Shown here one piece after another: positions 12,537-25,037 of a DNA stretch of 36,308 nt. The stretch lies in the IMG/VR virus record IMGVR_UViG_3300021197_001403, positions 1-36,308 of that record. One strand, given 5' to 3'. This stretch comes from a virus. Within the stretch, counting starts at the first letter, position 1, and each line of letters opens with the position of its first letter. A program made the position numbers and the translations under genes. The notes beneath the pieces were generated by a model. It did no database searches and was not told the DNA's origin. It saw only the letters and a list, made by a program, of their open reading frames with translations.

Positions 12537-14894
12537 TTAGTTCAGAAGTGAGCCTGCCGCATTGTAGACGTTTATCCTGTAATGTGACCCATGTTGGCCA
12601 TCAAGCTTATCTGCATCAAACCCTTTTGTTCCGCCAAAATACGCTAAAAGTTCTGCAGAGTCAATTGCAAGATCTCTTGTAGAAGCGATCGTGCCGCCAC
12701 CTGCTAAACCTATACCAGCTGTAATGCTTACGCCAGAGTGATCAATATGCTCATTGGCTACAAACCCACTTAAGTTGTCATGTACAATTTCACCGTCATT
12801 GGTTTGAATATCATTTGCGTTAACTGTAATACCAGTACCAGCAATGACGTTCAGTGTTCTTGTTGCAGCAATTGTACCACCACCAGTCATACCAGCACCG
12901 GCTGTAATCGTTACACCAGAGTGATCAATATGTTCGTTAGCAACGAAACCGCTTAAGTTGTCGTGAACAATCTCGCCATCGTTTGTTGTAACGTCATTTG
13001 CATTGACTGTAATACCAGTTCCTGCAATAACGTTTAGTGTTCGTGTAGCTGCAATTGTACCGCCACCAGTCATACCAGCACCAGCCGTTATTGTTACGCC
13101 CGAGTGATCGATATGCTCATTCGCTACAAAGCCTGATAGATTATCATGTACAATCTCACCATCGTTGGTCTGAACGTCGTTAGCATTCACGGTAATACCG
13201 GTACCAGCGATCACGTTCAGTGTTCTTGTAGCTGCGATTGTACCACCGCCAGTCATACCTGCGCCAGCTGTCATTGTAACACCAGAGTGATCTATATGTT
13301 CGTTAGCGACAAACCCACTTAAGTTATCATGGACAAGTGAGCTGTTATAATATGTTAAGAGCTCTGCGGAGTCAATGGCAAGGTCTCTTGTGGAAGCAAT
13401 TGTACCTCCACCTTTTAGGCCTACACCAGCTGTAATGCTTACTCCACTATGGTCAATGTGTTCGTTTGCTACAAAGTTTGTTAAATTATCGTGGTCAATA
13501 TGTGGTTCATAATATACTGTGAATTGGTTTGAGTCAATTGCCAATGTTCTATTTGCTGCAATTGTACCGCCGCCGCTTAGACCCGTTCCAGCTGTTATAG
13601 AAACTGAAGAGTGGTCAATGTGTTCGTTTGCTACGAAGCCTGATAGATTGTCGTGAACGATTTGTCCGTCGTTTGTTGCAACGTCATTCGCATTTACAGT
13701 AATACCTGTACCAGCGATAACATTTAATGTCCGAGTTGCTGCTATCGTACCACCGCCGGTCATACCAGCGCCAGCGGTTACACTTACCCCTGAGTGGTCA
13801 ATGTGTTCGTTGGCTACGAATCCGGATAAATTATCATGGACGATTGAACCATTGTAGTAAGCAAGTAGTCCAGCAGAGTCAATTGCAATTGCATCAGCTG
13901 CTACCGAAATGCCTGTACCTGCACCAATGTTTAAAGTTCTACTAGCAGCCAGTGTACCACCGCCAGTAAGCCCACTTCCTGCTACAATTGATCTACCTTC
14001 GAGACCAGCAACATCTACACCATCGACTGTGCCTGATAATGTAACATTACCTTGAACGTCCCAGTTCTTTGTGACTGTAAATTTATCGCCGGATGTAAAA
14101 TATAGTATACTTGGATTCGCGCCGCCTGTAGTACTGAGTTCAATACCACCACCGTTCATACCAGAGCTATCAGCTGCAGCATCTCCAAGTGTGAATAATT
14201 TGTCGTCTATTTGGACCGTGGTTGAGTTAACAGTTGTTTGGGTACCATTAATAGTTAGGTTACCTCCAACAACAACATTACCTGAAGCGTATAGCCCAGC
14301 AAATGTTACTGAGTCTGTTGTTCCAACGGGTTGTCCAATAGCTACGTCGTTTGCGTTTACTGTAACACCTGTACCAGCACCAACTGCAAAGCTTCGACTA
14401 GCTGCAATCGTACCGCCGCCGGTAAGTCCAGCACCAGCTGTAAGTGTTACTCCGCTATGATCTATATGTTCGTTTGCAACGAATCCCGAAAGATTATCGT
14501 GAACAAGCGAAGTATTATAGTATGCTAGAAGTTCTGCTGAATCAATGTTGAGAGTAACGGTAGATCCGTTACCACCTCCACCTAGTCCAACACCAGCTGT
14601 AATAGTTTGATTTGGAGCGGCAATATCTAATACAAGTGCAGAATCTAATCCCCCACCAATAGTGTCCCATGCAGCTGCATGGTAACCTTCGAATGTATTC
14701 GTTGTGGTGTTGTATCTTAGAAATCCTGCTGAAGGACTCCCATCACGTTGAGCTGTTGTCCCCGCTGGAATCGTGGCAGAACCGACTGGAGCAGTGATTT
14801 CGAGTTTGTCACTGTCCAGTGCATTAAAGTTTGCGTCTACCTCATTGTTCGTTAACGGTGAACCTTTAGTACTTCTTAACGTGATGGTTGTCAT
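12537..14894 (-). CDS. Tail fibre protein with eight 60-residue repeats (785 aa)
   Basis: Probable trimeric receptor-binding fibre. Residues 1-30 (TITLRSTKGSPLTNNEVDANF) form the short attachment motif seen at the start of many phage fibre proteins. Residues 190-300 carry a beta-rich insert with the common NGTQTTVNSTTVQIDDKLFTLG type sequence. One repeat precedes this insert and seven follow, each centred on HDNLSGFVANEHIDHSGV and a glycine-rich TAGAGMTGGGTIAATRTL segment, with a unit of about 58-61 residues. The C-terminal domain is short (DADKLDGQHGSHYRINVYN) and ends AAGSLLN, an ending resembling that of the 349-residue protein at 23988-25037. No intramolecular chaperone domain is visible. 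Confidence 0.88.
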   Translation of the reverse strand: MTTITLRSTKGSPLTNNEVDANFNALDSDKLEITAPVGSATIPAGTTAQRDGSPSAGFLRYNTTTNTFEGYHAAAWDTIGGGLDSALVLDIAAPNQTITAGVGLGGGGNGSTVTLNIDSAELLAYYNTSLVHDNLSGFVANEHIDHSGVTLTAGAGLTGGGTIAASRSFAVGAGTGVTVNANDVAIGQPVGTTDSVTFAGLYASGNVVVGGNLTINGTQTTVNSTTVQIDDKLFTLGDAAADSSGMNGGGIELSTTGGANPSILYFTSGDKFTVTKNWDVQGNVTLSGTVDGVDVAGLEGRSIVAGSGLTGGGTLAASRTLNIGAGTGISVAADAIAIDSAGLLAYYNGSIVHDNLSGFVANEHIDHSGVSVTAGAGMTGGGTIAATRTLNVIAGTGITVNANDVATNDGQIVHDNLSGFVANEHIDHSSVSITAGTGLSGGGTIAANRTLAIDSNQFTVYYEPHIDHDNLTNFVANEHIDHSGVSITAGVGLKGGGTIASTRDLAIDSAELLTYYNSSLVHDNLSGFVANEHIDHSGVTMTAGAGMTGGGTIAATRTLNVIAGTGITVNANDVQTNDGEIVHDNLSGFVANEHIDHSGVTITAGAGMTGGGTIAATRTLNVIAGTGITVNANDVTTNDGEIVHDNLSGFVANEHIDHSGVTITAGAGMTGGGTIAATRTLNVIAGTGITVNANDIQTNDGEIVHDNLSGFVANEHIDHSGVSITAGIGLAGGGTIASTRDLAIDSAELLAYFGGTKGFDADKLDGQHGSHYRINVYNAAGSLLN
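12600..13845 (-). repeat. Seven tandem ~180-nt coding repeats of the fibre gene
   Basis: Seven consecutive copies of a unit encoding HDNLSGFVANEHIDHS plus the following glycine-rich segment lie here; an eighth, isolated copy is at about 14350-14504. Protein copies are nearly identical while third codon positions differ freely between copies, so the repeats are old and kept by selection on the protein rather than freshly duplicated. Confidence 0.85.
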
Positions 14895-16981: not shown

Positions 16982-17320
16982 CTACGAGATCGTTGTAACG
17001 CCGGGCGTGACGGTTATCATGCCTTCGATTACCCTGTATTTTTCATTAGCAGGTGTTTCAATTAAAACATCATACACATATCGTCCGGCTTTAATAGTCG
17101 CTGTCTGTTCGTCCGTAAGGCTAATTTTGATCTCACCTGCAACTGCTGTAGCTGCTGCAGTAAAGCTTGCAGTAACAGAGGATGACGTGTAAGTCTTTTT
17201 CATCTGTGCTGCGAAGGTATGACTATTAAGGCCATACGCTGCACCATTTGGATCCTTGACACTAACTATATAGGTAAATGAAGATCCTTGTTCAATTTCT
17301 AAGTCTTCGTAAACAGCCAT
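16982..17320 (-). CDS. Small beta-sandwich virion protein, BppU-N-terminal-like (112 aa)
   Basis: The sequence VYEDLEIEQGSSFTYIVSVKDPNG, a central MKKTYTSS strand region, and AGRYVYDVLIET leading to RVIEGMITVTPGVT match the layout of a common small phage domain found at the N-terminus of baseplate or fibre proteins such as BppU and as a free-standing protein in T4-like marine phages. It is probably a structural adaptor for a fibre; this is inference. It lies 4 nt before the 509-residue repeat protein and follows two late-promoter boxes. Confidence 0.82.
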   Translation of the reverse strand: MAVYEDLEIEQGSSFTYIVSVKDPNGAAYGLNSHTFAAQMKKTYTSSSVTASFTAAATAVAGEIKISLTDEQTATIKAGRYVYDVLIETPANEKYRVIEGMITVTPGVTTIS

Positions 17321-17374: not shown

Positions 17375-18148
17375 TTATTTATAATATTCAAGAAAAAGCT
17401 CCTCAGCAAATTCCCATAGATCATCTTGTGCTGTTACCCCATTCAATATGCAAAATGGAATGTGTGGTGCATGTAATAAACCTACGTCAGGGTTATTTAT
17501 CCATTCACCATTTACTCTTTCAAATCTATACTTCCCCCACCCTTTCTTGTGTTTCATAGCAACAGATACTCCGTATGTACCATAATAATCTTTCATAACT
17601 TCTAAAAATTCTAGATCGTCCCGGACCGTATGCCACAAATATCTACAAACACCTTTATATTCATTCATTACAAAATACGGATTTGCCATAAATGCGTCGT
17701 AAATCTTTTTCATATTATTTGAATGAAAGAACATTATAGAAGAGTTTACTTTTGTGTTGTAGTTATATCCAATGTCGAAAGCAGATGTTTCAACTAATGT
17801 ATCGCTATCAACAAAACATATTTTAATCTTTTGGGGGTTTACATTATCAAAGTAATGTGTTATATTACAATGAATAACAACATCAATATCCAAATATAAT
17901 ACCTTGCCCGGTGTATTATACACGGTCGGATCAAAGACACAGATCTTTGGCCAGAACCCTTTTATTTCAGAATCGGTGTATTCTGATATGTCGTATACTT
18001 GAATTTCAGGATATAGGTCTTCTGGATTTTCTGTAAGGCAGTAAAATTGAAATGGTAAATCCAGATTTCTTTTTACCATTCTATAGAGTCTGTTTACATG
18101 TTCAGCATTGTACTTTGTACCAGACTTAACACATACTACATTGATCAT
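17375..18148 (-). CDS. Putative glycosyltransferase, GT-A fold, GT8-like (257 aa)
   Basis: The N-terminus MINVVCVKSGTKYNAEHVNRL, the segment FYCLTENPEDL (36-46) and VLYLDIDVVIHCNITHYF (83-100) are the nucleotide-sugar-binding pattern of GT8-like enzymes; D87-x-D89 is the metal-binding DxD motif. The downstream FDIGYNYNTKVNSSIMFFHSN resembles the acceptor-side (D/N)xN-S region. It probably transfers a sugar from a nucleotide-sugar; donor and acceptor are unknown. The start overlaps the oxygenase-like gene by 4 nt (ATGA), so the genes are translationally coupled. Phage structural regions rarely carry two glycosyltransferases without a purpose, and virion protein modification is the favoured inference; host glycan or nucleotide modification are alternatives. 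Confidence 0.85.
   Translation of the reverse strand: MINVVCVKSGTKYNAEHVNRLYRMVKRNLDLPFQFYCLTENPEDLYPEIQVYDISEYTDSEIKGFWPKICVFDPTVYNTPGKVLYLDIDVVIHCNITHYFDNVNPQKIKICFVDSDTLVETSAFDIGYNYNTKVNSSIMFFHSNNMKKIYDAFMANPYFVMNEYKGVCRYLWHTVRDDLEFLEVMKDYYGTYGVSVAMKHKKGWGKYRFERVNGEWINNPDVGLLHAPHIPFCILNGVTAQDDLWEFAEELFLEYYK
17376..17383 (-). promoter_or_regulatory. Second, tandem TATAAATA box at the end of the glycosyltransferase gene
   Basis: A second perfect minus-strand TATAAATA overlaps the last codons and stop of the 257-residue glycosyltransferase gene, 25 nt upstream of the box at 17351-17358. It could be a tandem promoter, or chance because TAT AAA TAA encodes the Tyr-Lys-stop ending. Confidence 0.45.
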
Positions 18149-18810
18149 ACTGGATCTTCAATATCCTCGATGATTGATTCCCACATATCTTCTGCTTCCT
18201 GGAAGACATATGCGACAGAGATTCTTAAACAGTTCGTAGCAGCAGAGTGGTAACACAATCGATCTTGTTGGTGGTATCCGCCAAAATATCCCATCTTACA
18301 CTGCCATCCTGGAACATCTTGTACCCGGACTCTTTCTTTTTTATCTAGATCCCAGTAATCAAACCAGCCATCACCATTCTCAGACCATGAGAAGATAACA
18401 TTATATCCAGCAGCATTTGCATTATTGTGCCAACTAATAAACCCTCCTGGAGGATATACAGTAACAAGAGTATTGCGATGTGCAGATAGCTCCGTCATTA
18501 ATTCTACATTTGTTTCCTGGGCAACATCTCTGTATTTCTGAAGCGTACGAACATCAGCATCATCGTCAACCTTACCTGGTTGCAATCCATGAAAAGACTG
18601 CATTGTTTCTGGGAAGCCTTCGTGCTGTTGTCCCATCTGAATAACTCTGTGCATATATTCAGTAGACGTCCAGTCCTTCCAGCTGCTATTCTTACAATTC
18701 AGTTTTAGATCTTTTTTCAATTCCCCGTTTTCCCATTGCTGGGATATAAACTTCTGTAATTTGTCTAAAGTTTTCTGGACTTCTTCATTGTTGATTTTTA
18801 TATCTCTCAT
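18145..18810 (-). CDS. 2OG-Fe(II) oxygenase-like protein (221 aa)
   Basis: Residues 1-110 are helical. Residues 117-205 look like a double-stranded beta-helix core: TVYPPGGFISWHNNANAAG (117-135), YNVIFSWSENGDGWFDYWD, then GWQCKMGYFGG and CYHSAATNCLRISVAYVF. His128 and His188 are the likely iron ligands and Arg196 the 2-oxoglutarate anchor. The usual carboxylate of the HxD motif is replaced by Asn (H128-N-N130), so this is either an unusual facial triad or a two-His iron centre as in aspartyl/asparaginyl hydroxylases. Such phage proteins are found in marine T4-like genomes. It lies between two glycosyltransferases with 4-nt overlaps on both sides. A hydroxylase that prepares acceptor residues for glycosylation is the inference. 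Confidence 0.75.
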   Translation of the reverse strand: MRDIKINNEEVQKTLDKLQKFISQQWENGELKKDLKLNCKNSSWKDWTSTEYMHRVIQMGQQHEGFPETMQSFHGLQPGKVDDDADVRTLQKYRDVAQETNVELMTELSAHRNTLVTVYPPGGFISWHNNANAAGYNVIFSWSENGDGWFDYWDLDKKERVRVQDVPGWQCKMGYFGGYHQQDRLCYHSAATNCLRISVAYVFQEAEDMWESIIEDIEDPV

Positions 18811-19601
18811 ATTCTATAATCCGCTGCTTTGTTCATTGTTGATGAATAATGTATAATGATTGGATCTTTGTCAACTAAGTTATAGCTACCGTCTTCTTTT
18901 TGTCGAAAACTAGTAAACCAGTTCCAACGATAATTGTCTGAGAACCTACCAATCTTAATATCTTTATATTTATCCATTTTGTTTACCATCCACCAAAGAG
19001 TAAACTGATCCCATCTTAGCATAGAATGTGGAACATCATTTGCCCACCATCTTTCGGGCTCATCATAACGAATATCTTTTTTTCTTCTTTGGTAGATTCG
19101 TTCTTGTATTACAAACATCTCCCACCAGTCTATCATAAATTCCTTCATGATTGGTTTGCTATGATCATATAAACATACTCCACCACAAAGGGTAAGGTCA
19201 ACCCTTTCACCGTCACCAAACTCAGCATATACTTCTGCAAAGCTTCCTTGAGATCTTGCATCTTTTTTCAGTTCTACAAATGTTAGATCATTATCGCCTA
19301 ACTCGTCCCAGACACTTATAATGTCTTCGTGAGCGCATTCACAGTCTGCATCAATGTAGAATGTGATATCGTATGGCGTATTTTGCATACCATACATCTT
19401 AGATCTTATATGGTCAGGACAGTCAAAGATATGTTCACACATATCCCTTGCACGGTCATCAACCCAATCATCGTGTGTGAATAAAGTGATCCTTGCATCT
19501 TCGTAGTGATCCAATATTGAATCGATTAGGTTTACTGCTGATGCATAAAATGCCCATTGTTTTGAGGCAACAATTACAAAACCTTTACTTGGGCTGCTCA
19601 T
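18807..19601 (-). CDS. Putative glycosyltransferase, GT-A fold (264 aa)
   Basis: The protein begins GFVIVASKQWAFYASAVNLI and carries YDITFYIDADCECAHEDII (77-95), where D84-A-D86 is a DxD metal and nucleotide-sugar motif at the end of a hydrophobic strand. LTLCGGVCLYDHSKPIM and WWANDVPHSMLRWDQFTLWW follow, as in many GT-A enzymes where a conserved Asp/Trp region contacts the acceptor. It is not closely similar to the second glycosyltransferase at 17375-18148. It overlaps the preceding gene by 17 nt and the next by 4 nt. The substrate is unknown; modification of neighbouring fibre proteins is inference. Confidence 0.8.
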   Translation of the reverse strand: MSSPSKGFVIVASKQWAFYASAVNLIDSILDHYEDARITLFTHDDWVDDRARDMCEHIFDCPDHIRSKMYGMQNTPYDITFYIDADCECAHEDIISVWDELGDNDLTFVELKKDARSQGSFAEVYAEFGDGERVDLTLCGGVCLYDHSKPIMKEFMIDWWEMFVIQERIYQRRKKDIRYDEPERWWANDVPHSMLRWDQFTLWWMVNKMDKYKDIKIGRFSDNYRWNWFTSFRQKEDGSYNLVDKDPIIIHYSSTMNKAADYRI

Positions 19602-20034
19602 TCTCTATTTCATCTTTCAATAACATAACTGTGTAGGCCAATAACTCATATCTGTTTTTGGACTTTCTCATTCTTGCTTTCATTTTACGATTGGTAGAGC
19701 CTTTAATAGTATCAATCTCAAAGACTTCAAGCTTTGCATTAAAAAGCTCTTCCAGTTTCTTCGATTGCTCTTGCTCTTTCCGTTTCATAATATCTGCTTC
19801 ACGACGTTTACGATGTCGCTCTTCACGTTCCGATGTATTGATATCAATCTTCTCGATAGTATTCTGCTTAATAATTTCATCCCAGTCAGGATTCTGCTTG
19901 CCATCTTTTGTGTATTTAAAGATTTTTGCAGTAGAAGAAGATTCTTTACCATCTCCATGGTCAATTACCAATTTGCAGGTAATACGGTCTTTCTGGTAGT
20001 TCTCCCAAAAGGGATGCTTCCATAGTTTTTTCAT
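19585..20034 (-). CDS. Basic, Lys/Arg-rich coiled-coil protein of unknown function (149 aa)
   Basis: I do not recognise a characterised family. The N-terminal third (MKKLWKHPFWENYQKDRITC) is aromatic-rich; residues 60-100 are a highly charged helix (SEREERHRKRREADIMKRK) likely to form a coiled coil; the rest is basic (TNRKMKARMRKSKNRYELL) and ends in an acidic helix. It sits between the four-residue-repeat fibre genes and the glycosyltransferase cassette and overlaps the first glycosyltransferase by 17 nt. It could be a fibre assembly chaperone or an adaptor bringing modifying enzymes to the fibre; both are speculation from position. Confidence 0.85.
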   Translation of the reverse strand: MKKLWKHPFWENYQKDRITCKLVIDHGDGKESSSTAKIFKYTKDGKQNPDWDEIIKQNTIEKIDINTSEREERHRKRREADIMKRKEQEQSKKLEELFNAKLEVFEIDTIKGSTNRKMKARMRKSKNRYELLAYTVMLLKDEIENEQPK

Positions 20035-20049
20035 TTCACTTATTCCTAA

Positions 20050-22452
20050 TTAAGCAATGCGCATATAGAGCGTATAAGTTTCAATTGTTTCATTGGCACT
20101 ATTAATCAATAGCCCGCTATAATCTCCGGTATAATTACCAGTATAGTTTCCGGTGTAGTTGCCTTCGAAATTACCAGTATAGTCGCCAGTAAAGTCCCCG
20201 ACATAATTTCCTGTAAAGTCGCCTACATAGTTTCCTGCAAACGCACCTTCATAGTCTGCACTGTAGTTACCGACATACTCGCCAACATAATCGACTGAAT
20301 AGTTTCCAACGAAGTTACCAGTATATACCCCTTCGTAATCGCCAAGATAATTACCTTCGTAGTTACCAAGATAGTCGGCTACATAGTTGCCGGCATAATC
20401 TTCGCTATAGTTCCCTACATATGCAAGTGTAGAATCGCTGGTTGAATCACGAGTAAATGTACCATCGAAGGTGTCTGTACTATTACGGGTTGACGTTCGT
20501 TGATAATCGACTGTCGATGTTCTTTGTGAGTTTCTAGTATAATCGACGGTCGATGTTCTTTGTGAGTTTCTAGTAAATTGACCATCGTAGTTACCGGTGT
20601 AGTTCCCGGTATAATCACCTAGGAAGTTGCCGCCGACATAGTCCCCTGCAAAGTTACCGGTATAGTCCCCAGTAAAGTCGCCTGTAAAGGCTTGCGTACT
20701 ATCTCTGGTACTCGTTCTCTGGTAGTTTGTAGCTCTTGTTCTCTGGTAGTTTGTAGCTCTTGTTCTTTGAGAATTTCTTGTACTAGTTCTTGTACTAGTT
20801 CTTTGAGAATTTCTTGTACTATTTCTCGTATAATCCCCTGTAAAATCGCCTATGTATTGTGCATAGCCACCACCAGTGTATGGGTTACCAGACTGCGTTC
20901 TAACTCTCCCATAGATGCCAGTATAGTTTCCGGTGAAGTCGCCAGTATAATCGCCTAAGAAGTTACCCGCAAAGTTCCCAGTATAATCACCAAGGAAGTT
21001 ACCAGTGTAATCGCCTAAGAAGTTACCAGTATAATCACCAAGGAAGTTACCCGCAAAGTTCCCAGTAAAGGCTTGCGTGGAATTGCGGGTAAAGTTCTGA
21101 GTGCTATCTCTTGTATAGTTAACAGTAGATGTTCTCTGCGAGTTGCGAGTTGAGACTCTTGTATATTGGCCATCATAGTTACCAGTGTAATCACCTAGGA
21201 AGTTACCGCCAACATAGTTACCGGTATAATCACCAAGGAAGTTACCACCAACATAATTGCCAAGATAGTTACCTTCAAAGTCACCGGTATATGTTCCAAC
21301 GTAGTTACCTTCGAAGTTGCCTACGTAGTTACCAGTGTAGTTACCTTCGAAGTCTAAATTGTAATTGCCAACGTAGTCTACTTCAGAATCTCTAGTTGAC
21401 GTACGCGTGCTTGTTCTTTGGTAGATCCCAGTATAATCAGAAGTACTGTCTCGGGTATATTCACCTGCATAGTTACCCGCGTAGTCGCCCGCGAACTCGC
21501 CCTGGTACGTGCCCACGTAATCGCCTACGAAATCATCGGTAGAGTTTCTGGTAAATGTATCAGTAGAGTTTCTAGTAAAGTTGTCTGTACTATCTCTTGT
21601 GCTTACTCTCGTACTATCTCTCGTACTATCTCTTGTGTAGTTCGTATCAGTTGTAGTTTGCTTTGTATCAGTTGCAGTACCTTGATTTAACCAAGTACCG
21701 GTACCTGGTGCACCGTCTGCAGAAGATCTGAGTTCATATAGACCAGCTTTTGCGTTTGCTATAATTCGATTCTGCGCGTACTTGCCTAACGTATATCCTA
21801 TTTGGCCAACTGTAGCTTCTTGTGCGCCATCGAATGATTGATCTAGATCTGTTTCATCTTTGTATATGCCCTTGGCCTTAACGTACTTGGCTGTAGTAGG
21901 GGCAGTCATTGCAGTACGTTTCCAGATAGTATAATTTACTGCTGTGCCATCTGTTCGGTTATCTGTAAAGACATTTGATAGAGCGGCAGCATAATCACTT
22001 CCTGGTGTACTTGCTGCAAGCTTATATGTTCCAGGATATTGAAAAGTGTGAATACGCGTTACAAGTTCATCAGTCAATAAGTTCAGATCAGAGTCTGCCA
22101 TTTCCCGTAATTGAAAGTTTGGACTATTCTGAAATCCAAATGGGCGCCTAAATCCATCTGAGTCGGTAAGAGAAGTCGTACCACTTTTTTGGTAAATTAC
22201 TGTGTTAGTAGTAGTTGTTGTGAGTGTGCCATGAGATCCTACCGATTGATCGAACTGTGTATCAGTATAAGTACCGATCGCATCACTACCAGCCCCAGAA
22301 GAGTTTATCCTACTAGTAGATGTGTTTGCAATAGTCGATAGTTTTATTCCCGCCTTATAGGCAAGATAGGCCATTTCGTCTGAATCAAATTGTATCAGAT
22401 CGCCATTGGTCCCTTGTAATTTGAGAGGGGTTTGTAAGGTCGTCAAAGCCAT
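20050..22452 (-). CDS. Four-residue-repeat fibre protein, long paralogue (800 aa)
   Basis: Three parts are visible. Residues 1-270 are a unique N-terminal domain shared with the 507-residue neighbour (for example IGTYTDTQFDQSVGSHG, YPGTYKLAAS, LSNVFTDNRTDG). Residues 271-780 are an almost unbroken run of about 127 four-residue units in two interchangeable forms, (Y/F)-x-G-(N/D) and S-T-R-(N/D/T), kept in one register except for occasional GG insertions (VGGNF). One conserved interruption, RVRTQSGNPYTGGGYAQY, lies at 515-533. The last 20 residues (ETIETYTLYMRIA) match the paralogue's end. There are no cysteines in the repeat. A slender, rigid, solvent-exposed fibre shaft is the best guess. Tyr/Asn/Ser/Thr density offers many possible modification sites for the downstream glycosyltransferases and oxygenase. 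Confidence 0.85.
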   Translation of the reverse strand: MALTTLQTPLKLQGTNGDLIQFDSDEMAYLAYKAGIKLSTIANTSTSRINSSGAGSDAIGTYTDTQFDQSVGSHGTLTTTTTNTVIYQKSGTTSLTDSDGFRRPFGFQNSPNFQLREMADSDLNLLTDELVTRIHTFQYPGTYKLAASTPGSDYAAALSNVFTDNRTDGTAVNYTIWKRTAMTAPTTAKYVKAKGIYKDETDLDQSFDGAQEATVGQIGYTLGKYAQNRIIANAKAGLYELRSSADGAPGTGTWLNQGTATDTKQTTTDTNYTRDSTRDSTRVSTRDSTDNFTRNSTDTFTRNSTDDFVGDYVGTYQGEFAGDYAGNYAGEYTRDSTSDYTGIYQRTSTRTSTRDSEVDYVGNYNLDFEGNYTGNYVGNFEGNYVGTYTGDFEGNYLGNYVGGNFLGDYTGNYVGGNFLGDYTGNYDGQYTRVSTRNSQRTSTVNYTRDSTQNFTRNSTQAFTGNFAGNFLGDYTGNFLGDYTGNFLGDYTGNFAGNFLGDYTGDFTGNYTGIYGRVRTQSGNPYTGGGYAQYIGDFTGDYTRNSTRNSQRTSTRTSTRNSQRTRATNYQRTRATNYQRTSTRDSTQAFTGDFTGDYTGNFAGDYVGGNFLGDYTGNYTGNYDGQFTRNSQRTSTVDYTRNSQRTSTVDYQRTSTRNSTDTFDGTFTRDSTSDSTLAYVGNYSEDYAGNYVADYLGNYEGNYLGDYEGVYTGNFVGNYSVDYVGEYVGNYSADYEGAFAGNYVGDFTGNYVGDFTGDYTGNFEGNYTGNYTGNYTGDYSGLLINSANETIETYTLYMRIA
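20113..21642 (-). repeat. 12-nt-period coding repeat tract (long paralogue)
   Basis: About 1.5 kb of DNA follows a 12-nt period encoding four-residue units. Higher-order perfect copies are embedded: a 24-nt duplication at 20714-20761, and a 25-nt segment at 20515-20539 repeated at 20551-20575 (36-nt spacing). A 24-nt unit encoding NFLGDYTG recurs around 20940-21060. Recent duplications like these imply ongoing length change by slippage or recombination. Confidence 0.88.
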
Positions 22453-23976
22453 TTAAGCAGTCCTAACATATAAGGTATAGGTTTCGATTGTTGTGCTTCC
22501 AGCTTGAATTGTTTCCCCAGCATAGTTGCCTACGTAGTTACCCACGTAATTGCCTTCATAGTCTGCAACATAGTTGCCTACAAAATCACCTGTATACTCT
22601 TCATCGTAATTGCCAACATATTCACCTATGAAATCAGGTTCTCCATCATAGGTTGGTACATAGTTACCAGTATAATTCCCGTCAAAGGTACTAGTATAAT
22701 CCCCAACATAGGTTGGCACATAGTCGCCCGCAAATTCTGCAAGATAATAAACTGTAACAGTAGAACCTCTTGTAAAGGCACTCTGAAAATCTCCCTCATA
22801 GTTGCCTTCAAAATTACCGGTGTAAACCGCATAACCAGTCCCAGTAAATGGGTTCGCTGCACCACCATAATTATCCGCTCTTACACGAGTAAAGGCACCC
22901 TGATAATCTGCCTCGTAGTTACCGGTGTAGGTTACAACACCACCAAATCCAGATTCGTAATTACCTACGAAAGCAGCGCCATCAGAGTTTCTTGTAAAGT
23001 TATCCCCGCCTGGTCCGTCATAGTTACCAACATACGCTAATGTAAATGCAGTCCCATCGAAAGATTGAAATCCTACATAATCACCTGCATACGTGCCTGT
23101 GTATGATGTAATATAATCAACCGTACTATTTCGGGTAAAAGGATTTGTTGACGTTCGGGTGGATGTTCGAGTAGAGTCTCGTGTATAGTTTGCATCTGCT
23201 GTAGTGAGTTTCGTATCAGTAGCAGTACCTTTTGCCACCCATGTACCAGATGCAGATGGAGCACCTTGTGCTGATGATCTTATTTGATATGCCCCAATAT
23301 TATCTGTAGAAGACATAATGCGTGTTTTAACACGTTGACCAAAACTAACCTTTGCCTCAGTGTTCGACATACCTTTTAGATTTTGTGTACCACCAGTACC
23401 GCCAGGAACTAACTTTATAGCTTTTACTACAGTTGGTTCAGTCATGGTCTGGCGCTTATAGATGCTATAATTTACAGAGTGACCATCTGTTCTTGTGTCG
23501 GTGAATACATTTGAAAGATGTGCTGTGTATCCCGAAGGCGCACTTGTTGCAAGTTTATATGTTCCAGGATAATCGTTTACAAAGATCTTTCCAATTAATC
23601 GATCTGCGATTGCATCCATCTGAGATGAATTTGCTGCTTCTATTTCACCTGGGAACTTATCATATAGTACAGGCTTTGTAAAGTTTGCTACATTCTCTGA
23701 TGCAGTACCTGTAACCTGTTTAATTGTAACATTGGTAGTAGTTGTACTAATTGCAGATCCAGGATGAGATCCTACCGCCTGATCGAATCTTGTATTTGTA
23801 AATGTACCAATAGTAGTTCCGGAAGATGTGTTAAGAGATGCAACTTCAGATGTTCCAGCGGCTGCTAACTGAAGGCCTGCCTGATAGGCGAGATAGTTTT
23901 CTTCTGTATCCGTAATCTTCTTAAGGTTACCATTTGCGTCTGAAATCTTAAGAAGGGCGTCAGTTGGACCTGCCAT
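22453..23976 (-). CDS. Four-residue-repeat fibre protein, short paralogue (507 aa)
   Basis: Tandem paralogue of the 800-residue protein that follows it without a gap. The N-terminal domain (1-262) aligns throughout with its neighbour: IGTFTNTRFDQAVGSH, YPGTYKLATS, LSNVFTDTRTDG, then GTATDTKLTTADANYTRDSTR. The repeat part (about 263-488) is shorter and more degenerate, with (Y/F)-x-G-(N/D) units mixed with loop-like insertions, such as DGPGGDNFTRNSDGAAF. It carries the same kind of interruption as the long copy (RVRADNYGGAANPFTGTGYAVY, 364-385), and an equivalent C-terminus (TIETYTLYVRTA). Similar ends with different shaft lengths suggest two fibres, or two segments of one fibre, attached and capped in the same way. 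Function is inferred only. Confidence 0.85.
   Translation of the reverse strand: MAGPTDALLKISDANGNLKKITDTEENYLAYQAGLQLAAAGTSEVASLNTSSGTTIGTFTNTRFDQAVGSHPGSAISTTTTNVTIKQVTGTASENVANFTKPVLYDKFPGEIEAANSSQMDAIADRLIGKIFVNDYPGTYKLATSAPSGYTAHLSNVFTDTRTDGHSVNYSIYKRQTMTEPTVVKAIKLVPGGTGGTQNLKGMSNTEAKVSFGQRVKTRIMSSTDNIGAYQIRSSAQGAPSASGTWVAKGTATDTKLTTADANYTRDSTRTSTRTSTNPFTRNSTVDYITSYTGTYAGDYVGFQSFDGTAFTLAYVGNYDGPGGDNFTRNSDGAAFVGNYESGFGGVVTYTGNYEADYQGAFTRVRADNYGGAANPFTGTGYAVYTGNFEGNYEGDFQSAFTRGSTVTVYYLAEFAGDYVPTYVGDYTSTFDGNYTGNYVPTYDGEPDFIGEYVGNYDEEYTGDFVGNYVADYEGNYVGNYVGNYAGETIQAGSTTIETYTLYVRTA
22513..23190 (-). repeat. Degenerate 12-nt-period coding repeat tract (short paralogue)
   Basis: The same four-residue repeat type as the neighbouring gene, but with more substitutions and insertions and no long perfect DNA copies seen. 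It looks older or less actively expanding than the tract at 20113-21642. Confidence 0.75.
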
Positions 23977-23987
23977 AATCTAATCCC

Positions 23988-25037
23988 TTAATTGAGTAAC
24001 GTACCATCTGAATCGTATATATTCGGAATTCTACCATACGTTTCGTTAATAGAAACTACGACGTTTGCCTTTGCAGTGGTAGAAAGTGCCGCCAAGTTAC
24101 CGACTGGTGATGCTGTTACCGATGCGTCTATCACTCCTATAGATCCATGAAGTTCGTTGATTGCCCCTACAAATGTTCCCTTAGTTGATGTTGCCAGAGT
24201 TGAAAGTGGACCATGTTCGCCATGTAGTTCAGCAATTGCAGTACTAACCGTTGATGCAGTTGTTCCAAACGCCCCTGCTGAAATTGTACCTAGCTCCGCA
24301 TCGTGTTCGTTTATTGCGCCTATAAGAGTCTTTAAAGTAGTGTTCAATCCGCCTGATCCAATCGAATCTGAAAGCTCATTTACAGCATCTGATAGTGTGG
24401 TTGCCTCTGTAGTTAAAGCTTGCGCAGGTTCTACTCTTGCATTGAGCGTGTCGATTTCAGCTTCAAGTTCACCGATCGCAGCACCAACTGTTCCTGCTGA
24501 TGTTCCCATCACGCCGGTTGAGATCGTACCAAGTTCTGCATCTAGTTCGTTAATGGCTCCAACAAGGTTTGAGGTAGCAGTTGTAGTAAGTGATCCATGT
24601 GCACCAAGTTCTGTACGAAGCTCTCTTGCTGCAGCTGAAAGATCTGTTGCAGTAAGACCAGTCAAGGTCATATTACCAATATCGCCTTCGTGCTCATTAA
24701 TAGCACCAACAAGATTCTTTACAGAAGTATCCAGTCCTCCTGATCCAATCGAATCGCTAATCTCATTGATTGCAGGTTTAATACCTGTAACGTCTGTTTT
24801 GAGAGCAACTTCGCCAATCGAATCATGTAATTCGTTTATTGCACTTATAAGAGTTGCTGCAGTAGTATTCAGTCCGCCAACGCCTATAGAGTCTGATATT
24901 TCATTCAGTGAAACAACCAGATCGGAATCGGCAGTAGTTTTCAGTAGCGCAAGATCACCAATAAGGTTCCGCTGGGAATTAATCTTATCAACTTGCTGTT
25001 TAAAAGTTGAGAGTAGTGATATGTACGTTTTTGCCAT
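23988..25037 (-). CDS. Repetitive virion protein with ~25-residue AINEL repeats (349 aa)
   Basis: The first 30 residues (ISLLSTFKQQVDKINSQRN) are a helical attachment-like segment. The rest consists of about 12 repeats of 24-31 residues with the core LVGAINELHDSIG or NEISDSIGSGGLNTT. This pattern of alternating short helices and Gly/Thr turns is found in phage tail fibre shafts. It ends GRIPNIYDSDGTLLN, resembling the end of the 785-residue fibre. There is no enzyme motif. It overlaps the 74-residue gene start by one base and precedes the paralogous repeat proteins by 11 nt, all on one transcript. Probably a fibre or fibre-connector protein. Confidence 0.85.
   Translation of the reverse strand: MAKTYISLLSTFKQQVDKINSQRNLIGDLALLKTTADSDLVVSLNEISDSIGVGGLNTTAATLISAINELHDSIGEVALKTDVTGIKPAINEISDSIGSGGLDTSVKNLVGAINEHEGDIGNMTLTGLTATDLSAAARELRTELGAHGSLTTTATSNLVGAINELDAELGTISTGVMGTSAGTVGAAIGELEAEIDTLNARVEPAQALTTEATTLSDAVNELSDSIGSGGLNTTLKTLIGAINEHDAELGTISAGAFGTTASTVSTAIAELHGEHGPLSTLATSTKGTFVGAINELHGSIGVIDASVTASPVGNLAALSTTAKANVVVSINETYGRIPNIYDSDGTLLN

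Follow-up and report, generated by a model that had tools for sequence, protein, structure and literature searches.

The closest described relative of the two putative fibre proteins considered here, A and B, is a 3347-residue protein of the Kyanoviridae phage C48C1 (WJE88074.1, genome OQ984149.1). A and B are encoded in the window, the 36,308-nucleotide stretch that makes up IMG/VR virus record IMGVR_UViG_3300021197_001403, and carry long arrays of four-residue units (tetrads). The C48C1 protein has the same layout, with an N-terminal domain, a tetrad array and the C-terminus ETYTLYVRVA, and its locus resembles the window in the trio of genes downstream and in the 74-residue, DUF4815 and gp8-like genes upstream. 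In contrast to the window, C48C1 has a single very long unannotated gene in place of two, and its leading period is 12. Non-repetitive, globular-looking inserts and one long tandem-duplicated segment also lie within the C48C1 array (L001:10007-20050). A structural protein of cyanophage S-RIM2 (L002:3372-9110) carries VTGN/LTGD tetrads in its C-terminal half, which share with A and B the period of 4, Gly at the third position and Asn or Asp at the fourth. It differs from A and B in its aliphatic first position, its short array and its N-terminal region, and the downstream trio was not found beside it.

Two further systems offer partial precedents. Phage tail-fibre chaperones such as gp9 of Alteromonas phage A5 have β-hairpin "tentacles", the longest reported measuring about 88 Å (PMC10579305). 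The hairpin predicted here for A and B would likewise be long, projecting from a folded domain and encoded among phage fibre genes, but its arms, of ~110 (B) to 250 (A) residues, are repetitive and complementary; no homology to these chaperones was found, although none was specifically looked for. Mimivirus collagen is a viral repetitive fibrous protein encoded with its own hydroxylating and glycosylating enzymes, and its glycosylation has been assayed (PMC9546862). It is a Gly-X-Y triple helix unrelated to A and B, whose glycosylation we infer, and so offers a parallel in principle but no more.

A period-4 array in two paralogous proteins

The open reading frames (ORFs) of A and B abut end to end with zero gap (Table 1), and the coordinates and lengths that the first-pass annotation gave them, 800 and 507 residues, are exact. 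The two proteins are paralogues, 46% identical over the N-terminal region and matching at their C-termini. The first ~265 residues of each form a separate folded domain outside the array, which covers roughly residues 270–780 of A and 264–485 of B; the repeats thus run over long stretches, as first described, but not through the whole proteins. At lag 4, identity within the array of A is 0.36 (z 21.9), rising to 0.40 at lag 8 (z 24.2; 500 shuffles each), while lag 4 in the array of B gives 0.21 (z 6.6, shuffle test). Autocorrelation peaks are restricted to multiples of 4, bearing out a period beyond composition, and of the spacings between successive Y/F residues, 86 of 92 within the array of A and 35 of 46 within that of B are multiples of 4. 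Both tetrad forms named at the outset, (Y/F)xG(N/D) and STR(N/D/T), are present. The tetrads are real, but their description as strict and unchanging in register was too strong, since single-residue slips such as YVGGNF produce a spacing of 5 (four times in A, twice in B) and interruptions are more frequent in B than in A.

A collagen-like (period 3) or pentapeptide repeat was rejected, in agreement with the first-pass annotation, for its wrong period and the lack of a Pfam match. Searches of Pfam and the PDB with the sequences of A and B gave no match, and PHROG gave no full-length match, only weak ones at the level of the repeat; by sequence, the pattern matches no known repeat family, in line with the first-pass annotation.

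Relatives are numerous among uncultured viruses. Among 50,697 phage records searched by tblastn with both proteins, one holds a full-length relative, the hypothetical protein of C48C1, and S-RIM2-type records matched solely in the short VTGN/LTGD repeat. Scanning IMG/VR for four perfect aromatic-x-Gly-(Asn/Asp) tetrads yielded at least 120 stretches; among the matches listed, most are family members and some are simple repeats in other frames. We collected 138 distinct complete tetrad-rich proteins with a median length of 832 residues, 135 of them with the N-terminal domain. Bacterial genomes gave 39 matches to the pattern, none of which is a family relative. The fibre family is common in uncultured viruses, yet missing from the curated libraries searched.

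Antiparallel covariation and reciprocal tetrads

The computations establish covariation between the two arms of the array, outgoing and incoming, together with its single register, its depth and reciprocal blocks of tetrad forms. Among 94–108 non-redundant relatives, each residue counted inwards from the array start covaries with the one at the same count from the array end, in an antiparallel register that is the same whatever the array length and that can be followed for more than 120 residues along the arms. Mean-field direct coupling analysis of 103 non-redundant proteins places the top couplings between C-terminus and N-terminal domain on antiparallel lines (260–491, 268–479, 258–495, 267–480 and 263–484 in B numbering), pairing the C-terminal strand with the strand that leads into the array. 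When the analysis is extended over 60 residues of the arms, antiparallel diagonals 239, 241 and 243 have mean z of 1.41, 1.51 and 1.17, against at most 0.65 for parallel diagonals. In a test by residue class that controls for column composition, the peak stays at or near 239–243 in each depth bin to ~200 residues, although it stands out less in the deeper ones. When proteins are given one another's incoming arms, the signal is lost: z is 21.3 at offset 241 and ~10 at ±12, and 0 of 300 permutations reach the observed value. Because kinship raises every offset to some extent (z about 10 even far from the register), it is the sharpness of the peak, rather than absolute z, that carries the argument. 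A DNA inverted repeat was rejected as the source of the mirror pattern, none able to explain it having been found.

Across the arms the two tetrad forms are reciprocal. With phase fixed, Arg at tetrad position 3 avoids Arg on the opposite arm: the Arg/Gly odds ratio is 0.11 at offset 237 and 0.40 at offset 241, compared with 0.82–2.0 at other phase-preserving offsets, and Ser-Ser across arms at position 1 occurs in only two cases at each of offsets 237 and 241. Protein A is the clearest single case: when it is drawn as a hairpin, Ser/Arg and aromatic/Gly blocks change arms several times yet stay opposite each other throughout, with zero Arg-Arg or Ser-Ser contacts at the offsets tested. The composition tracks of its arms are anticorrelated most strongly, over 201 offsets, at the family register (r=-0.71), and 3 of 235 circular rotations of the incoming arm reach this value; the corresponding minimum in B (r=-0.42, 201 offsets) lies at the same register. 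The family mean is -0.33 at offset about 240–244 and near 0 at other offsets, and r of -0.36 persists when the first 120 residues of each arm are removed. Each of the three largest clades (38, 15 and 10 proteins) has its trough at 242 independently; among all 19 clades, many of them single proteins, 7 place it within the expected window, against 13% by chance. The first-pass annotation had taken the forms as interchangeable along a fibre of alternating surface chemistry, an arrangement that we reject on the phase-controlled cross-arm odds ratios. As the forms are reciprocal across antiparallel arms, each stretch of ribbon tends to hold one of each.

The register also predicts where the chain should turn. 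Its midpoint is residue 524 in A and 374 in B, and the least tetrad-like windows are centred on 523 and 374, respectively, with the non-tetrad segments of both proteins within 1–2 residues of the predicted midpoint. The two putative tips have the motif RVR...NP(Y/F)TGxGYAxY in common. In the family, the least tetrad-like window lies at most 10 residues from the midpoint in 21% of proteins versus 4.7% expected, and many long members have several array interruptions.

The predicted hairpin

AlphaFold2, run on the B monomer with an input alignment that was scrambled within the repeats, models the N-terminal domain with a predicted local distance difference test score (pLDDT) of 90–98 and the C-terminal strand 477–505 with a pLDDT of 93–96, the array being flanked by strands of 27–29 residues. 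With confidence high at both ends and not between them, the array is an insertion between two conserved parts. Foldseek comparison of the B model with PDB and BFVD found nothing at E<=0.001. VIA aligns 111–118 residues of the N-terminal domain with the C-terminal β-prism of MACPF/perforin-2 proteins (Z 7.0 for 8b6v and 6.2 for 2qp2), a possible resemblance that Foldseek does not support.

Our preferred interpretation, which we regard as probable, is that each of the two is a structural protein of the phage, folded as a giant antiparallel β-hairpin with complementary tetrad forms. The ~265-residue N-terminal domain and the conserved C-terminal strand would constitute the base, from which the chain would leave as a long β-arm of four-residue units, turn at the non-tetrad tip and return antiparallel and in register. 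Ser/Arg units of one arm would face aromatic/Gly units of the other, with Arg-Arg and Ser-Ser avoided. The arms would pair inside one chain and not between chains, the ribbon would oligomerise into a fibre on the tail, and the tip may bind the host surface; gene order is what suggests fibre function, tip binding and virion location, and the hairpin itself is deduced statistically from an alignment equivalent to about 100 effective sequences. A β strand extends by ~3.3 Å per residue, at which the predicted arms would span roughly 80 nm in A and 35 nm in B. The novelty would lie in this predicted architecture, whereas a role as phage fibre would be ordinary. We see the balance as even on the broader proposal of a new fibrous-protein class, in which a chain pairs with itself along hundreds of residues according to a tetrad code of two letters, is thereby free to vary in arm length while base and tip remain paired, and is hydroxylated and glycosylated by enzymes of its own phage.

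A conserved downstream cassette

In nearly all loci with flanking DNA the fibre is followed by u149, GT264 and OG221, in that order, and in part of the family by GT257. A scan seeded with OG221 covered 64 loci in which the upstream DNA extends for 3.5 kb or more, some of whose contigs overlap those of earlier scans. It found the fibre in 63 of the 64, comprising 60 with a tetrad ORF and both other genes and 3 with a sub-threshold fibre. In the 50,697 phage records, the fibre, GT264 and OG221 each have a full-length match only in C48C1. PHROG and Pfam searches gave no family match for u149, which from its position could possibly be a dedicated assembly chaperone. GT264 matches PF00535 at E=0.019, weaker than the curated cut-off, and its D84 and D86 are invariant in 16 sequences.

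OG221 had no Pfam match, and as a profile–profile comparison with S-RIM2 oxygenases gave just 1.2% probability, its fold was predicted instead. The AlphaFold2 model (pLDDT 88.7) has the double-stranded β-helix of the prolyl 4-hydroxylase/PHD2 type. Its best Foldseek matches are 2-oxoglutarate oxygenases (PolD, Pseudomonas putida prolyl 4-hydroxylase and human PHD2; probability 1.0, E ~1e-4 to 4e-5), and VIA gives Z of about 10–11 to enzymes of this group. OG221 shares the H...H...R pattern with the P. putida enzyme (4j25) and PHD2, but is only about 8–14% identical to them. H128-x-N130, H188 and R196 are invariant in the 16 aligned sequences, all of which have HxN where these enzymes have HxD and so depart from the HxD/E...H iron triad. 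With Asn replacing Asp, activity is not assured; OG221 may have an unusual iron site or may have lost hydroxylase activity. One OG221 relative (L242:4577-5212) is not part of a fibre cassette; it lies downstream of a gene resembling that of a major capsid protein and adjoins another uncharacterised protein. The near-constant position of the fibre ahead of u149, GT264 and OG221 makes its modification by the co-encoded GT264 and OG221 likely but unproven.

Weighing the alternatives

Several observations count against the hairpin. The effective alignment depth is only about 90–100 sequences, the direct partner register is fixed only to within about 2 residues, and 48% of proteins alone place the register within ±2 while half do not; B taken alone gives a weak signal. 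A six-protein clade poor in Ser/Arg units has no reciprocal pattern. The first-pass annotation had called for structure prediction of the repeat, which was run within the 507-residue B as a monomer, and AlphaFold2 gives the arms no confident structure (pLDDT about 25–40). A two-stranded ribbon with 65 to >1,500 residues in each arm would have to oligomerise or stack, and covariation cannot separate intrachain from interchain pairing.

This last point bears on a domain-swapped or antiparallel multimer, with mirrored pairing between chains, for example of an outgoing arm with the next subunit's incoming arm in a trimer. Such an arrangement would give the same covariation, and phage fibres are usually trimers. 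We nevertheless think it unlikely, as AlphaFold2 confidently sets the C-terminal strand against the N-terminal domain of its own chain, the couplings are continuous from base into arms, and an intrachain hairpin is simpler. Far less probable is a known β fibre of period 8 or 12, such as the octapeptide triple-stranded β-helix of T4 gp5/VgrG, with two to three tetrads per turn and parallel subunits. Lag 8 does slightly exceed lag 4 in A (0.40 vs 0.36), and lag 12 (0.27) exceeds lags 4 and 8 in C48C1, but which higher period leads varies among relatives (8 in A, 12 in C48C1), covariation mirrored about a midpoint would have no explanation in a parallel helix, and there is no PDB match by sequence or by fold (Foldseek E<=0.001). 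We attach equally little weight to a low-complexity spacer, disordered or elastic, whose tetrads change in number by slippage and whose pattern is an end-to-end drift in composition. The low pLDDT of the array, the tandem repeats at DNA level and an array that on average starts richer in Ser/Arg and ends richer in Tyr/Gly would all suit it. A global gradient, however, would not yield a trough limited to a few residues of one register, nor would drift yield the reciprocal block switches of A or phase-controlled odds ratios near 0.1, and the signal outlasts removal of the first 120 residues.

The cassette enzymes might instead have the surface of the host or a different virion component as their target and merely be co-transcribed with the fibre, a situation compatible with the hairpin. 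Phage glycosyltransferases act on many targets, and both the OG221 relative away from the fibre in L242 and the Asn of OG221 in place of the usual iron-binding Asp speak for another target. Against this stand the near-exclusive co-occurrence and fixed order with the fibre, seen in the oxygenase-seeded scan and in annotated phages, and we entertain the alternative as a real if lesser possibility.

Genomic setting

The contig encodes a T4-like virion module with gp23-, gp20-, gp18- and gp17-type PHROGs (major capsid, portal, sheath and terminase) and belongs to the T4-like Kyanoviridae; the gp23 proteins of the contig and of C48C1 are 66% identical. The fibre genes follow gp6, gp8 and gp9/10-like genes and a tail-fibre gene on one strand, an order repeated in many relatives. 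PHROG matches and gene order place them in the tail/baseplate module, and their position in this tail/baseplate/fibre block makes them putative members of the phage tail-fibre class.

Table 1 Features of the fibre locus, with coordinates in the window
Feature	Position	Strand	Evidence
Fibre A ORF, 800 aa	20050-22452	-	Agrees with first-pass annotation
A N-terminal base domain (residues 1-272), ends in long strand entering array	21637-22452	-	Family conservation; B homologue pLDDT 90-98
A outgoing arm (residues 273-515), alternating STR-type and YxG-type tetrad blocks	20908-21636	-	Autocorrelation; antiparallel covariation
A predicted hairpin tip (about residues 515-533, GRVRTQSGNPYTGGGYAQY), least tetrad-like stretch	20854-20910	-	Predicted midpoint 524, window centre 523
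A incoming arm (residues 534-780)	20113-20853	-	r=-0.71 at family register
A conserved C-terminal strand (LLINSANETIETYTLYMRIA), predicted packing on base domain	20053-20112	-	Antiparallel couplings; B homologue pLDDT 93-96
Fibre B ORF, 507 aa	22453-23976	-	Agrees with first-pass annotation
B N-terminal base domain (residues 1-264)	23185-23976	-	AlphaFold2 pLDDT 90-98
B outgoing arm (residues 265-361)	22894-23184	-	Covariation
B predicted hairpin tip (about residues 362-385, ..RVRADNYGGAANPFTGTGYAVY)	22822-22893	-	Midpoint 374 = least-tetrad centre 374
B incoming arm (residues 386-485)	22522-22821	-	r=-0.42, minimum over 201 offsets at family register
B C-terminal strand (residues 486-507, ..TIETYTLYVRTA)	22456-22521	-	Strand 477-505 pLDDT 93-96; antiparallel couplings
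u149, 149 aa, directly downstream of fibre	19585-20034	-	Conserved fibre neighbour in 106 loci and in oxygenase-seeded scan
GT264, glycosyltransferase-like, D84-A-D86 motif	18807-19601	-	Weak PF00535 match; alignment; neighbour in 103 loci
OG221, predicted 2-oxoglutarate oxygenase, prolyl-hydroxylase fold	18145-18810	-	AlphaFold2, Foldseek, VIA; neighbour in 94 loci
GT257, second glycosyltransferase (phrog_1962)	17375-18148	-	Part of family only

Other fibre-related genes lie nearby. A 785-residue tail-fibre-like protein (window 12537-14894) contains 3.4 copies of a 183-nucleotide (61-residue) tandem repeat. A second, of 349 residues (23988-25037), has repeats of ~23–26 residues (NEL..SIG; lag 23, z 4.6) and ends in DSDGTLLN, as do upstream genes of relatives. 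The 112-residue product of 16982-17320 resembles an L-shaped tail-fibre assembly protein (phrog_3304) and LtfC (PF23926, below cut-off). Within the family, a divergent subfamily (L024, L027, L074, L076, L077, L082, L097, L100 and L131) has GSRNYAGNYAG-type units and LW(V/I)(K/R)TA ends, and several of its loci carry GT257-like genes downstream on the opposite strand; L076 is also a member of the six-protein clade that has no reciprocal pattern.

Implications

If the hairpin is correct, the family would provide a repeat architecture in which sequence alone reveals how the units pair, and rules of this sort could guide the design of β-ribbons. The conserved pair of oxygenase and glycosyltransferase-like enzymes would make post-translational modification of a phage fibre directly testable.

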